DNA of 64,000 nucleotides, taken from NCBI RefSeq assembly GCF_000424305.1, contig NZ_KE384162.1:186001-250000 (forward strand), read 5' to 3'. The translations under genes and the position numbers were made by a program. The first letter of the stretch is position 1, and the number at the start of each line of letters is the position of its first letter. Positions 9,732-14,617 of this stretch are shown piece by piece. The DNA is from Pseudobutyrivibrio ruminis AD2017 (GTDB taxonomy: Bacteria; Bacillota; Clostridia; Lachnospirales; Lachnospiraceae). Under the pieces are notes generated by a model that saw only the letters and a program-made list of their open reading frames with translations, did not search any database and was not told the DNA's origin.

Positions 9732-12137
9732 ATGAAGCATAATTTTAAAGCAATTGAGAAAAAATGGCAGGCAGCCTGGGCAAAAGATGATATTTTCAAG
9801 GCTGTTGATGGTTCAGATAAGCCAAAGTTCTACGGATTGGTTGAATTCCCATATCCATCAGGAGCTGGTATGCACGTTGGACATATCAAGGCTTATTCTT
9901 CAGTAGAAGTTATTTCTAGAAAGCGTAGAATGCAGGGCTACAATGTATTATTCCCTATCGGATTTGATGCATTTGGTCTTCCTACAGAAAACTACGCGGT
10001 AAAGACAAACACACATCCAAGAAAGATTACAGACGACAATATTAAGAAATTTACAACTCAGCTTAAGAGCGTAGGTTTCTCATTTGATTATAGCCGCACA
10101 ATCGATACTACTCAGGAAGATTACTACAAGTGGACACAGTGGATTTTCCTTAAGATGTTTGAAAAGGGATTAGTTTTCAGAGATAAGACTCTTGTTAACT
10201 ATTGCCCACATTGCAAGGTAGTTCTTTCAAACGAGGATTCCCAGGGCGGTAAGTGTGATATCTGTGATACAGATGTTATCCAGAAGGAAAAGGATGTTTG
10301 GTATCTTCGTATTACAGAGTACGCTGATAAGCTTCTTCAGGGACTTGATGGACTTGATTTCCCAGAGAACATCAAGCAGCAGCAGGTTAACTGGATTGGT
10401 AAGTCAAAGGGTGCTTTCGTAAACTTCACACTTGACGGTATCGAGGACAAGCTTGAAATTTACACAACTCGTCCAGATACACTTTGTGGTGTTACATTTA
10501 TGGTTATTGCTCCTGAGCATCCATATATTGATAAATACGCTGACAAGATTTCCAACATGGACGCAATCTTAGCTTACAGAGCTGAGTGCCAGAAGAAGTC
10601 TGAGTTCGAGCGTACACAGCTTGTTTCTAAGGATAAGACAGGCGTACGTGTTGAGGGCTTTGATGCAATCAACCCAATCACAGGAAAGAAGATTCCTGTA
10701 TTTATTTCAGATTACGTAATGATGGGCTACGGTACAGGTGCGATTATGGCTGTTCCTGCTCATGATCAGCGTGACTGGGACTTCGCTACTAAGTTTGGCA
10801 TCGACATCATCCCTGTAATCGAGGGTGGTGATGTTACAAAGGAAGCTTACACAGGCGAAGGTAACATGATTAACTCTGAGTTCTTAAATGGTCTTAACAA
10901 TAAAAAGGACTCAATCGATAGAATGATTAAGGAATTAGAGAAACTTGGCTGTGGTAAGGCTGGTGTTCAGTACAAGATGAAGGACTGGGCATTCAACAGA
11001 CAGCGTTACTGGGGTGAGCCTATTCCAATCGTACATTGTCCTACATGTGGCGATGTAGCAGTTCCATATGAGGAGCTTCCACTTAAGCTTCCAGTAATGG
11101 AGAAGTTTGAGCCAGGTACAGACGGTGAGTCACCACTTGCCAGAGTAGAAAGCTTTGTAAATTGCAAGTGTCCTAAGTGTGGTGGAGCTGCAAAGCGTGA
11201 GACAGATACTATGCCACAGTGGGCTGGTTCATCTTGGTACTTCCTTCGTTACACCGATCCACACAACGATAATGAATTTGCTTCTATGGACAAGCTTAAA
11301 TACTGGATGCCAGTTGATTGGTATAACGGTGGTATGGAGCACGTTACACGTCACTTAATTTACTCACGTTTCTGGCATCACTTCCTTTATGACCTTGGCG
11401 TAGTTAATACTCCAGAGCCATACTTAAAGAGAAGTGCCCAGGGTATGATTCTTGGTGAGGATGGACAGAAGATGTCTAAGTCTCGTGGAAACGTTATTGA
11501 CCCACTTGATATTGTAGATGCATACGGTGCTGATACACTTCGTACATACGTATTATTCATGGGTGATTACGGCGCAGCAGCTCCTTGGTCAGATGCTTCA
11601 GTTCGTGGATGCAAGAGATTCCTTGAGAGATTCGCAGGTCTTACAGATATTGTTTCTGAGGAGGCTAACAGCGAAAAGATTGAAACAGGAATTCATAAGA
11701 CAATAAAGAAGGTTTCAGAAGATATCGAGGCTATGAAGTACAACACAGCTATCGCAGCTATGATGGGTCTTCTTAACGATATCGTTGCTGAGGGACATAT
11801 TACAAAAGAGAACCTTATTATTTTAGTTAAGCTTCTTTGCCCATTTGCTCCACATCTTGCAGAAGAGATGTACGCAGAGCTTGGTGGCGAAGGCTACTGC
11901 TCACTTGCTGCATGGCCAGAATATGACCCTGCAAAGATTGTAGAATCAACAATCGAAATCGCAGTTCAGGTAAACGGTAAGCTTAAGGCTACAATCACAA
12001 TCCCTAACGGATGTGAAAAGGATGAAGCTCTTGCAACAGCAAAGGCCGACGAATCCGTAGCAAAGGCTCTCGAAGGCAAGAACCTGGTAAAAGAGATTTA
12101 CGTACCAAACAAAATCGTAAACCTTGTTGTAAAGTAG
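9732..12137 (+). CDS. leuS: Leucyl-tRNA synthetase
   Basis: This 801-residue class I synthetase charges tRNA-Leu. The HIGH box reads HVGH at residues 48-51 (YPSGAGMHVGHIKAY). A zinc-binding CPHC...CDIC segment follows at about 158-177. The CP1 editing domain contains TTRPDTLCGVTFMV and GTGAIMAVPAHDQRD. KMSKS lies at 580-584. The C-terminal anticodon-binding and LSD regions are complete. Length is typical of bacterial LeuRS. It is transcribed alone from a promoter nested in the previous terminator. No T-box leader is present, unlike many Firmicutes synthetase genes. The gene is followed after 31 bases by a structured RNA element. Confidence 0.98.
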   Translation: MKHNFKAIEKKWQAAWAKDDIFKAVDGSDKPKFYGLVEFPYPSGAGMHVGHIKAYSSVEVISRKRRMQGYNVLFPIGFDAFGLPTENYAVKTNTHPRKITDDNIKKFTTQLKSVGFSFDYSRTIDTTQEDYYKWTQWIFLKMFEKGLVFRDKTLVNYCPHCKVVLSNEDSQGGKCDICDTDVIQKEKDVWYLRITEYADKLLQGLDGLDFPENIKQQQVNWIGKSKGAFVNFTLDGIEDKLEIYTTRPDTLCGVTFMVIAPEHPYIDKYADKISNMDAILAYRAECQKKSEFERTQLVSKDKTGVRVEGFDAINPITGKKIPVFISDYVMMGYGTGAIMAVPAHDQRDWDFATKFGIDIIPVIEGGDVTKEAYTGEGNMINSEFLNGLNNKKDSIDRMIKELEKLGCGKAGVQYKMKDWAFNRQRYWGEPIPIVHCPTCGDVAVPYEELPLKLPVMEKFEPGTDGESPLARVESFVNCKCPKCGGAAKRETDTMPQWAGSSWYFLRYTDPHNDNEFASMDKLKYWMPVDWYNGGMEHVTRHLIYSRFWHHFLYDLGVVNTPEPYLKRSAQGMILGEDGQKMSKSRGNVIDPLDIVDAYGADTLRTYVLFMGDYGAAAPWSDASVRGCKRFLERFAGLTDIVSEEANSEKIETGIHKTIKKVSEDIEAMKYNTAIAAMMGLLNDIVAEGHITKENLIILVKLLCPFAPHLAEEMYAELGGEGYCSLAAWPEYDPAKIVESTIEIAVQVNGKLKATITIPNGCEKDEALATAKADESVAKALEGKNLVKEIYVPNKIVNLVVK

Positions 12138-12168
12138 ATTAATCATAGTTACTAAATATTTTTCATGA

Positions 12169-12315
12169 GCCAAATGTTTCTCAACCTTGGCAAGCGCGAG
12201 CAGGGAGGCACCATACCGAGCATGGGAAGGACCTACGCCGGCGGGAGGGTTCCCATGCGAAAGTATGGGGGGTGCCCTGCGGGAGCACGGAAACCTAGGC
12301 AACATTTGGCGGACT
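12169..12315 (+). ncRNA. Structured RNA element, copy 1 (icd leader)
   Basis: The closing helix GCCAAATGTT (12169-12178)/AACATTTGGC (12301-12310) is perfect. Inside the 5' arm is a 25-base block (12180-12204, starting CTCAACCTTGG and ending GCGCGAGCAGG) identical to one in copy 2. GCAG (12200-12203) pairs with CTGC (12277-12280). Further stems are GGCACC (12207-12212)/GGTGCC (12271-12276), ATAC (12213-12216)/GTAT (12263-12266) and GCATGGGAA (12220-12228)/TTCCCATGC (12250-12258). CCTGCGGGAGCA (12276-12287) and GGACT after the closing helix are also shared. It ends seven bases before the icd ribosome binding site AAGGAG, so it could act in cis, but its class is unknown to me. Confidence 0.8.
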
Positions 12316-12335
12316 AAAGTGTAAGGAGAATAAGT

Positions 12336-13541
12336 ATGAGCAAGATTCAGATGACAACACCCCTTGTAGAGATGGACGGAGACGAAATGACTCGTATCCT
12401 TTGGCAGATGATAAAGGACGAGCTTTTGCTTCCATTTATTGATTTAAAGACAGAGTACTATGACCTTGGTCTTGAACATCGTAACGAGACAGATGATAAG
12501 GTTACAGTAGATTCTGCCGAGGCTACCAAGAAATACGGTGTTGCCGTCAAGTGTGCCACAATCACTCCTAACGCTGCAAGAATGACAGAGTACAATCTTA
12601 AGGAAATGTGGAAGAGCCCAAACGGTACAATCCGCGCAATCTTAGATGGTACTGTGTTTAGAGCTCCAATCGTTGTAAAGGGAATCGAGCCAAATGTTAA
12701 GTCATGGAAGAAGCCTATTACTATAGCTCGTCATGCTTATGGTGATGTTTACAAGAACACAGAAATGCGAATCCCAGGTGCTGGTAAGGTTGAGCTTGTA
12801 TACACTGCAGAAGATGGCACTGAGGAACGCGCTCTTGTTCATACATTTAATGGTCCTGGTGTTGTTCAGGGTCAGCACAATATAGATGCTTCTATCGAGA
12901 GCTTCGCACATAGTTGCTTCAAATTCGCTCTTGATACAAAGCAGGATTTATGGTTTGCTTCTAAGGATACAATTTCAAAGAAGTACGACCACAGATTCAA
13001 AGATATCTTCCAGGAAATCTTTGATAAGGAATATAAGGATGCTTTTGATAAAGCAGGAATCGAATATTTCTACACACTTATTGATGATGCAGTAGCTCGT
13101 GTTATGAAGTCTGAGGGTGGATTTATCTGGGCATGTAAGAACTACGATGGTGATGTAATGAGCGATATGATTTCATCAGCATTTGGTTCACTTGCTATGA
13201 TGACCTCTGTTCTTGTTAGCCCTGCCGGCTACTATGAATACGAAGCTGCTCACGGTACAGTTCAGCGTCATTATTACAAGCACCTTAAGGGCGAGGAGAC
13301 ATCTACTAACTCAGTAGCTACAATTTTTGCCTGGACAGGAGCACTTAGAAAGCGTGGCGAATTAGATAACATTCCTGAGCTTTCAGCATTTGCAGATAAG
13401 CTTGAGAAAGCCTGCATCAAGACAATCGAGGATGGCAAAATGACAAAGGATTTAGCACTTATCACATCAATCGAAAATCCTACAGTCCTCAATTCCCGCG
13501 ATTTCATCATCGAAATCCGCAAGACTTTCGAGTCACTTTAA
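12336..13541 (+). CDS. icd: NADP-dependent isocitrate dehydrogenase, eukaryote-type
   Basis: This 401-residue enzyme converts isocitrate and NADP+ to 2-oxoglutarate, CO2 and NADPH, feeding glutamate synthesis in an anaerobe. The sequence matches the homodimeric subfamily that includes mitochondrial and cytosolic eukaryotic enzymes rather than the E. coli type: [13 protein letters not shown] at the start, the substrate-binding [10 protein letters not shown] segment, the metal/substrate motif NYDGDVMSD, and [10 protein letters not shown] near the cofactor site. Length is normal. It is preceded by structured RNA copy 1 and followed by a strong terminator, so its messenger may be controlled through that leader. 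No citrate synthase or aconitase gene lies nearby. Confidence 0.96.
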
Positions 13542-13576
13542 AATTGTCTGACAACTACATCTAGTGGTGCAGCTTG

Positions 13577-13605
13577 TTGACATCCACTATATAGTCTTTT
13601 ATAAT
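13577..13605 (+). promoter_or_regulatory. Consensus promoter upstream of scpA
   Basis: TTGACA at 13577-13582 and TATAAT at 13600-13605 have a 17-base spacer, an exact consensus match. The -10 box overlaps the 5' arm of the icd terminator. The start site at about 13612 gives a leader of about 250 bases that includes structured RNA copy 2. Confidence 0.85.
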
Positions 13606-13644
13606 AGTCTCATGCGTAGTCTCTACGTGTGAGACTATTTTATG
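13603..13644 (+). terminator. icd terminator overlapping the scpA promoter
   Basis: AATAGTCTCA (13603-13612) pairs with TGAGACTATT (13630-13639). An inner GCGTAG/CTACGT stem extends the helix, and TTTTAT follows. The expected start of scpA transcription lies at the inner edge of the 5' arm, so a transcript from that promoter would lose this hairpin. Confidence 0.85.
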
Positions 13645-13684
13645 TTCGTAGAAGATTCTAATGAATCTACAATTGATTAGATAA

Positions 13685-13844
13685 GCATGTAGTTTAAATG
13701 TACTCAACCTTGGCAAGCGCGAGCAGGATATGACCATCATTTTCCGAGTGTAATGAAGGAAAATGTTGGTCTAGTAAGCGGAGCTTACATCAGTGGCCTG
13801 CGGGAGCATGATAACTTATAGAGCATTTAAACTATATGCGGACT
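13685..13844 (+). ncRNA. Structured RNA element, copy 2 (scpA leader)
   Basis: The closing helix GCATGTAGTTTAAATG (13685-13700)/CATTTAAACTATATGC (13824-13839) is 16 bp with one G-U pair and has a different sequence from copy 1. The 25-base block (13703-13727) is identical to copy 1. GCAGG (13723-13727 region) pairs with CCTGC (13797-13801), which begins the shared CCTGCGGGAGCA (13797-13808). The interior differs: GACCA/TGGTC, CATTTTCC/GGAAAATG, and a GTAAGC/GCTTAC hairpin at about 13774-13788. GGACT follows the closing helix, as in copy 1, and the ribosome binding site GGGAG comes a few bases later. It sits inside the scpA transcript. Confidence 0.8.
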
Positions 13845-13861
13845 TTAAGGGAGAATTTATT

Positions 13862-14617
13862 TTGGAGATGAATGTAAAGCTTCAGGTGTTTGAGGGTCCT
13901 TTGGACTTGCTCTTACATCTGATAGATAAGAACAAAGTTGATATTTACGACATTCCTATCGTGGAGATTACAGACCAGTACATGGAATATGTTCGCGCCA
14001 TGGACCAGAGTAATCTAGATGTCATGAGTGAATTCTTGCTTATGGCAACTACTCTTTTAGACATTAAGAGCCGAATGCTTCTTCCAAGAGAAGAAAAGGA
14101 AGAGGATGAGGAAGAAGAGGAAGATCCACGTGCAGAGCTTGTTCAGCAGCTCCTTGAATATAAGATGTATAAGACAATATCTTATGAGCTTAGGGACAGA
14201 CAGATGGATGCAAGCCTTGTTTTCTATAAGGAGCCAACCATCCCTGATGAAGTACTTAAGTACGAGCAGCCTGTTGATTTGGAAGAGCTTATGGGAGATT
14301 TAACTTTAAATAAGCTTAACGACATTTTTAACCAGGTTCTCAAAAGACAGGATAACAGACGTGATCCTATCCGTTCTAGCTTTGGTAAAATCAAAAAGGA
14401 AGAGGTTTCCATGGAGCAGAAAATGGAATGGACTATCGCATTTGCGAAGATGCATAATACATTCAGCTTCAGAAATCTTTTGGAAGCAGCTCATTCTAAG
14501 ACAGAGGTTATTGTTACTTTCCTTTGCATTCTTGAAATGATGAAGGCTGGCCAGATAAATATCGCACAGGAAGATACATTTGCAGATATTGTTATAGAAT
14601 CTAAAATTGCAGCGTAG
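13862..14617 (+). CDS. scpA: Segregation and condensation protein A
   Basis: ScpA is the kleisin that bridges SMC heads and binds ScpB in the bacterial condensin. The N-terminal signature VKLQVFEGPLDLLLHLI is followed by KVDIYDIPIVEITDQYMEYV. An acidic linker (EEKEEDEEEEEEDPR) comes next, and a winged-helix C-terminal domain ends the protein. Length is 251 residues. The frame is open to 13793, but those codons lie in structured RNA copy 2. I chose TTG 13862 because AAGGGAG lies about eight bases upstream; ATG 13868 is the alternative but has its GGAG touching the start. scpB follows after 17 bases. Confidence 0.95.
   Translation: MEMNVKLQVFEGPLDLLLHLIDKNKVDIYDIPIVEITDQYMEYVRAMDQSNLDVMSEFLLMATTLLDIKSRMLLPREEKEEDEEEEEDPRAELVQQLLEYKMYKTISYELRDRQMDASLVFYKEPTIPDEVLKYEQPVDLEELMGDLTLNKLNDIFNQVLKRQDNRRDPIRSSFGKIKKEEVSMEQKMEWTIAFAKMHNTFSFRNLLEAAHSKTEVIVTFLCILEMMKAGQINIAQEDTFADIVIESKIAA

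Follow-up and report, generated by a model that had tools for sequence, protein, structure and literature searches.

Two structured RNA elements, which lie upstream of icd and scpA in a 64,000-nucleotide stretch of the Pseudobutyrivibrio ruminis AD2017 genome (hereafter the window), are best read, with modest confidence, as belonging to a superfamily of modular stem-loop repeats that is specific to the genus, is positioned at gene junctions and comprises two types, designated A and B. These repeats probably act as mRNA stem-loops at such junctions. The family has apparently not been described before; a search of open-licence PMC papers, by title or abstract start, found no description of it.

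Both copies in the window are of type A, and there is no B copy. They share a 25-base block, the sequence CCTGCGGGAGCA and, directly 3′ of the closing helix, GGACT; each sequence piece that an earlier note on this DNA had named in claiming shared blocks, GGACT and complementary closing helices is present as described. The closing helix has 10 perfect pairs in copy 1 and, in copy 2, either 16 pairs plus one G-U or 17 pairs plus two G-U. The helices had been placed correctly, but the bounds of the element had been drawn too tightly, as it reaches shared ends that extend copy 1 to 12160-12316 and copy 2 to 13677-13845 (Table 1). The predicted fold of copy 2 is more stable than all of 200 shuffled sequences (z = -4.78), whereas 10 of 200 shuffles fold as well as copy 1 (z = -1.81), so that energy alone is no proof of structure for copy 1. 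Within positions 12000-14000, five promoter-like sites were found against 4.3 expected, only one of which is perfect, and TTGAC and TATAAT are seen by eye in all 11 orthologous scpA regions, with or without a copy. Upstream of scpA (13577-13639) this perfect promoter is followed directly by a terminator-like hairpin of 17 pairs, an arrangement that is a possible attenuator. The scan of the same 2 kb for intrinsic terminators (a T-run after a stem) picked up the hairpin upstream of copy 2 and nothing at the copies, and a reading of the copies themselves as terminators is not supported.

Table 1. Features of the two type A copies and of the region upstream of scpA, in window positions
Feature	Position	Strand	Basis or remark
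Copy 1 left end TTTTCATGA (consensus TTTARATGA)	12160..12168	+	consensus over 76 flank pairs and 72 framed candidates
Copy 1 closing stem, 5′ arm	12169..12178	+	pairing; compensated changes at orthologous icd sites
Copy 1 conserved 25-base block with P2 5′ strand (CAGG, 12201-12204)	12180..12204	+	block recurrence, alignment
Copy 1 inner hairpin module (P3)	12205..12275	+	folding, P3 comparison
Copy 1 conserved block CCTGCGGGAGCA with P2 3′ strand	12276..12287	+	alignment
Copy 1 closing stem, 3′ arm	12301..12310	+	pairing
Copy 1 right end GGACTA (consensus GGAYTA)	12311..12316	+	flank consensus; icd start 19 bases on
Consensus promoter TTGACA-17-TATAAT, upstream of copy 2	13577..13605	+	12/12 matches
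Terminator-like hairpin between promoter and copy 2	13603..13639	+	2 overlapping sites found against 1.4 expected
Copy 2 left end TTAGATAA	13677..13684	+	flank consensus
Copy 2 closing stem, 5′ arm	13685..13701	+	pairing
Copy 2 conserved 25-base block with P2 5′ strand	13703..13727	+	block recurrence, alignment
Copy 2 inner hairpin module	13728..13796	+	unlike most: best match 61% among 26 own-genome copies
Copy 2 conserved block CCTGCGGGAGCA	13797..13808	+	alignment
Copy 2 closing stem, 3′ arm	13823..13839	+	pairing
Copy 2 right end GGACTT	13840..13845	+	22 bases to likely scpA start (ATG 13868, our choice in frame)

With up to three mismatches allowed, the 25-base block occurs 15 times in the genome and its reversed control not once, a recurrence that excludes a chance origin of the two copies. 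A covariance model was built from 13 copies in this genome, including both in the window; the minus-strand copy at locus L003 and the L008 copy, which has a large insert, were omitted from the seed. With 150 of 168 candidates scored, the model identifies 28 A copies in the genome at E up to 1, and the weakest of them has an E value of 0.0025. Of 29 genus genomes, 27 contain type A, as against none of 32 outside genomes, and the A copy number per genus genome, counted with stricter filters and at most 54 candidates scored per genome, ranges from 0 to at least 52, with two copies the fewest in a positive genome. At orthologous sites we noticed a sister type, B, that has the same ends as A and a different interior. 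A model of 14 B copies identifies at least 64 in the own genome (150 of 1165 candidates scored), giving at least 92 copies of A and B together. Type B is found in 28 of the 29 genus genomes and, outside the genus, in one of 32 with a borderline score (E 0.0097); across the bacterial family, with 299 genomes searched and 14 candidates scored in each, one of 298 genera has B at E 1e-5, and it is this genus. Copies are scarce in two of the genus genomes, G020 having none and G007 three of A and one of B. Of 80 icd loci collected from other genera, the 50 that were searched gave no copy at E up to 1, and with copy 1 as the query there was no match indicating phage or plasmid carriage. A pattern scan of viral contigs picked out 44 loci, the best of which scored 18.1 bits (E 0.07) with the model in stretches selected by that pattern, which we treat as chance. 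The proposal of a structured RNA element with many dispersed, covarying copies is therefore upheld by the 28 A copies in this genome: the copies are not confined to two, their helices covary and they match no known Rfam family.

The A and B repeats are built on a common frame that opens with TTTARATGA and a copy-specific stem; conserved internal loops and an inner hairpin follow, after which the stem returns and GGAYTA closes the element. The end consensus comes from 76 flank pairs and from 72 framed candidates, among which some that appear by eye to be chance matches were kept. The sequence of the closing stem differs in nearly every copy, yet its arms are complementary. Inside this stem, type A has the strand CTCAACCTWGGCAAGCGCGAG opposite CGGGAGCACGGAAnnCTAGG, then the covarying helix P2 (CAGG with CCTG) and, within P2, the inner hairpin P3. 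The order inward in type B is stem 1, a TAG/CGTAA loop, stem 2, stem 3, the loop AAGCGA/GAGCGG and a short apical stem. Conserved unpaired bases recur among the aligned copies (13 A, 14 B), and to our eye the internal loops may resemble sheared G-A pairs or a bulged-G motif. There are also variants of the frame. A third interior type of ~164 bases, within a TGAG ... CGGAYT frame and containing CTTAAAGTGCCGTCCCTACTTAG, lies upstream of a gene at locus L035 (minus strand, near 1655) and is also present at L219, L221 and L222. Nested elements, with a B-like hairpin inside the arms of a second one, are seen at L047 (1649-1795) and at L180 near 2581.

In alignments fitted to the models, 94.2% of the cells are paired in A (90 distinct copies; covariation score 0.532 versus 0.151 when shuffled) and 95.6% in B (85 distinct copies; 0.514 versus 0.147). 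In MAFFT alignments fitted to no model, not one of 500 shuffles attains the covariation score or the paired share of either type, and in A the counts of pairs and of pair types are reached by 1 and 3 of the 500. For fitted B, none of 500 shuffles reaches any measure; for fitted A the score and paired share lie above the shuffles but the pair-type count does not, being reached by 368 of 500. All of these shuffle controls ignore relatedness among copies. Compensatory change, which the earlier note took from its two copies, could not be demonstrated from those alone but is established with 13, 90 and 85 distinct copies. The strand that is selected was assessed from the ratio of G-U to A-C over distinct helix states. 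This is 42 to 2 in B and 16 to 1 in P2 and the base of P3 of A, and earlier counts for P3 were 50 to 19 and 20 to 0. The excess of G-U in the inner helices argues that the family strand is selected as folded, single-stranded RNA. The strand cannot be told clearly from the A closing stem, where the ratio is 9 to 5 over the whole stem and the innermost five pairs have no G-U in 228 cells (49 distinct stem states, all four Watson-Crick types occurring); earlier counts for P1, 20 to 25 and 3 to 2, were neutral. The idea that the closing stem never holds G-U in either type was dropped because stem 1 of B has six G-U, and one A-C, in 160 cells.

The history of the closing stem can be followed at orthologous sites. 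The search for orthologues took in 15 of the 28 A sites and 12 of the 28 relatives, with 14 sites compared; L225 (206 bases) was omitted from the ortholog groups. The 70 site comparisons, made over 59 regions of which 11 count for two sites, show an A copy on the same strand in 33 cases; this count was scored on the own-genome strand only, outside which fall inverted A copies at L187, L219 and L220. The other sites have a B copy, a remnant, a different arrangement or nothing and, with A so often absent, no copy looks essential. Where copies are retained, the stems at icd, GCCAAATGTT, GCTGAATGCA, GCTAAATGCC and GTAAAATGC, are each paired with their own complement, and the four stem versions at purM are likewise complementary. 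At icd, purM and the L036 locus all 12 variable stem columns are paired in every allele compared. Over all allele pairs, 49 positions have changed on both sides with pairing kept, and one-sided changes number 36, including 8 that pass through G-U, in arms that were trimmed by hand and with columns past the shortest allele uncounted. Exceptions are the outer stem at the L026 locus, broken in G014, and an A-C pair at typA in G023. Such homologous, compensated stems at icd and purM weaken the idea that the closing stem is made anew at each insertion. Inspection by eye of the copy-less sites L201, L202, L213, L218 and L228 revealed no clear target-site duplication. At three icd sites that have no copy (L183, L185, L190), AGCGGACTA is kept just before the ribosome-binding site; it may be a right-end remnant or a pre-existing target.

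Complementarity of the closing stem could also be maintained at the DNA level, by template switching that copies one arm from the other, with no selection on RNA. Such copying would fit the A closing stem, with its G-U-free inner pairs and low overall ratio unlike those of the other helices, and it would fit icd, purM and the L036 locus, where changes come in pairs and the stems of every allele compared are Watson-Crick. We nevertheless consider it very improbable, as the inner helices and the B stems, including stem 1, keep G-U pairs and mismatched conserved loops that copying would erase, and 8 of the one-sided changes pass through G-U.

The inner hairpins have a history of their own. When 26 of the 28 own-genome A copies are paired with their nearest neighbour by P3 (L042 and the short L043 copy were omitted), the median identity is 0.88 in P3 and 0.27 in the 5′ arm, and the mean identity of the 5′ arm region over all pairs is 0.33. 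The copies at L017 and L028 have identical P3 and none of 11 bases in common in the compared 5′ arm region; P3 is also identical in L021 and L027. Conversely, the purM copies of G023 and G025 have common arms and different P3. At DHFR, the own-genome copy carries an additional nested hairpin, absent from G023, and interior modules vary between orthologous copies at the purM, DHFR and typA sites. Copying of a whole element together with its stem would not give the same P3 within unrelated arms, whereas exchange or separate movement of the inner parts would. There is an outside chance that the repeats constitute an undescribed system of nested RNA hairpin cassettes, in which a shared frame is kept, the basal stem is rewritten on both arms at each site and inner modules travel separately. 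If true, this would imply a factor that recognizes the frame or the internal loops in ~100 mRNAs of the genus.

Genomic context was called from ORFs alone for 58 of the 92 copies (28 A and 30 B); one B copy, L339, is cut by a contig end and was left uncalled. Both neighbouring genes are on the strand of the copy in 20 of 28 A and 20 of 30 B cases. The neighbours are both on the opposite strand for 7 A copies and divergent for one; 8 of the 30 B copies lie between convergent genes and one is antisense. Between co-directional genes, 40 copies are therefore sense and 8 antisense (binomial p = 3e-6, both members of a pair counted separately). As 50 of 57 pairs of adjacent genes in the window are plus-plus, a location between co-directional genes is common in any case, and the informative part is the bias of 40 to 8. 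Among the 92 copies, those with a neighbour within 400 bases form 10 head-to-head pairs, no tail-to-tail pairs and three tandem pairs, and 7 of the 8 antisense copies belong to head-to-head pairs. The antisense copies are not clearly degraded, with six scoring 98 to 125 bits, L041 68.7 and L042 36.0.

A gene on the strand of the copy is next on the right-end side of 21 of the 28 A copies and, in 14 of these 21, the called start is within 60 bases. This, together with copy 2 being flanked by a perfect promoter and scpA and with the recurrence of unpaired bases in 13 A and 14 B copies, is what would be expected if the repeats were a class of cis-regulatory leaders controlling the gene downstream, either as riboswitch-like elements or by binding a protein. 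From their translated starts we take the downstream genes to include purM, valS, typA, hypA and DHFR, in addition to icd and scpA as first named. They have no evident common pathway, which argues against a metabolite-specific leader; B copies occur between convergent genes, some members are antisense, many orthologous genes have no copy and A was found in none of the 32 outside genomes. A leader class is therefore an unlikely explanation. The earlier suggestion of a cis-regulatory or mobile RNA class holds to the extent that the element is a structured, dispersed RNA, which may be either of the two. At L024, an A copy is located between a leader that looks T-box-like by eye (with no match at the Rfam gathering score) and a valS-like gene; G023 has no copy there.

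On the elements searched, every Rfam 15 family stays below its gathering score, and no hit overlaps either copy at E up to 10. Three hits below the gathering score (E 0.18 to 0.81), two to microRNA precursors and one to a snoRNA, are treated as chance, and one search matched only tmRNA, away from the element. The earlier note named an ORF-free relative of the HEARO/OMEGA RNAs as a candidate to exclude. HEARO/OMEGA RNAs are structured RNAs beside ATGA or GTGA with many copies that have no ORF, and the A and B repeats are similar in being structured, in having many ORF-less copies and in the ATGA or GTGA before many copies. The ATGA in front of copy 1, which the note gave as its reason for naming this candidate, and the ATAA in front of copy 2 in fact belong to the family's own left end, TTTARATGA. 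The HEARO model, RF02033, has no match in the 29 genus genomes at E 0.01, but as it is equally silent in 14 control genomes this falls short of strict proof of absence. The IscB RRXRR domain gives one weak match in the 29 genomes (25.4 bits, cut-off 25) and none in the own genome, and TnpB, matched in 6 of 29, is also unmatched there. As, in addition, the ends can pair with one another and so differ from a guide, kinship with HEARO/OMEGA or any other RNA of an RNA-guided nuclease is disfavoured to the point of being highly implausible. Models for other potential drivers were similarly silent: the Y1 transposase (PF01797), with matches in 10 of 29 genus genomes, has none in the own genome (G000) or in G018 with its 52 or more A copies, and a reverse transcriptase, matched in 15 of 29, has none in the own genome. 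A driver, if active, is something other than Y1, TnpB, IscB or reverse transcriptase, or it is gone.

Among known repeats, BOX, REP and ERIC are similar in kind, and the A and B repeats are without their defining sequence features as far as tested. BOX repeats, as presented in the sections consulted of PMC3049150, number 125 copies in Streptococcus pneumoniae, have terminal inverted repeats, cause target duplications and vary in the number of boxB modules. The likeness to that account lies in near-restriction to a narrow taxon, ~100 copies, intergenic location, modular construction with variable inner modules and predicted RNA stem-loops. The difference is that the stem inside the A and B ends differs in nearly every copy, yet is complementary, and that the inner hairpins are exchanged. 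Conserved terminal inverted repeats, a BOX and MITE feature, are not found, the terminal stems being complementary but copy-specific. With REP, REPIN and BIME elements, as covered in PMC3733652, the repeats share hairpins, short conserved unpaired ends, frequent inverted pairs (here the 10 head-to-head pairs) and placement between co-directional or convergent genes, where they are plausibly read as RNA. Unlike REP elements as described there, they are ~150 bases long and nested, with conserved internal loops and a stem that is not a conserved sequence; they end in TTTARATGA and GGAYTA without a GTAG or CGTC tag, and their own genome has no match to a Y1 (RAYT-type) transposase. Another paper on such elements is PMC3116915, and the REP-element passage of PMC12306157 names no Lachnospiraceae. 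ERIC is characterized, in the relevant part of PMC2267715, as one family with a common stem-loop, whereas A and B have a copy-specific closing stem and two interior types in one frame.

A serious rival is that the family is a purely selfish, non-autonomous, MITE-like repeat whose fold serves its own movement, whose locations are tolerated insertions and which has no use to the host. Copy numbers of A that range so widely among genus genomes, the many orthologous sites without a copy, head-to-head pairs like REP doublets and short ends common to the copies are all consistent with such an element. Against it, at least 92 copies are present in a genome with no match to Y1, the IscB domain, TnpB or reverse transcriptase, the strand bias and G-U excess suit RNA, no target duplication was recognized by eye and the stem inside the ends is not common to the copies, as carriage would have made it. 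We regard a wholly selfish repeat as a plausible but less probable reading.

Under the favoured reading of genus-specific stem-loop repeats at gene junctions, the copies would be transcribed within mRNA leaders and intercistronic spacers, and their stem-loops would then shape processing, stability or translation in cis, as proposed for REP elements. That they act in cis through mRNA stability or processing alone is a tentative suggestion, to which we give rather less than even weight. The family may have originated by non-autonomous mobility, with inner modules exchanged between copies afterwards. Whether repeats such as REP, ERIC and BOX amount to selfish DNA or to working RNA is a long-standing question. 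In this family, the two signals are separated within one element, with a conserved frame and loops, a stem that changes in pairs at several sites and an inner module that is near-identical at distant sites. As positive genomes contain from 2 to at least 52 A copies, and some orthologous sites are occupied and others empty, the question becomes testable in this genus.
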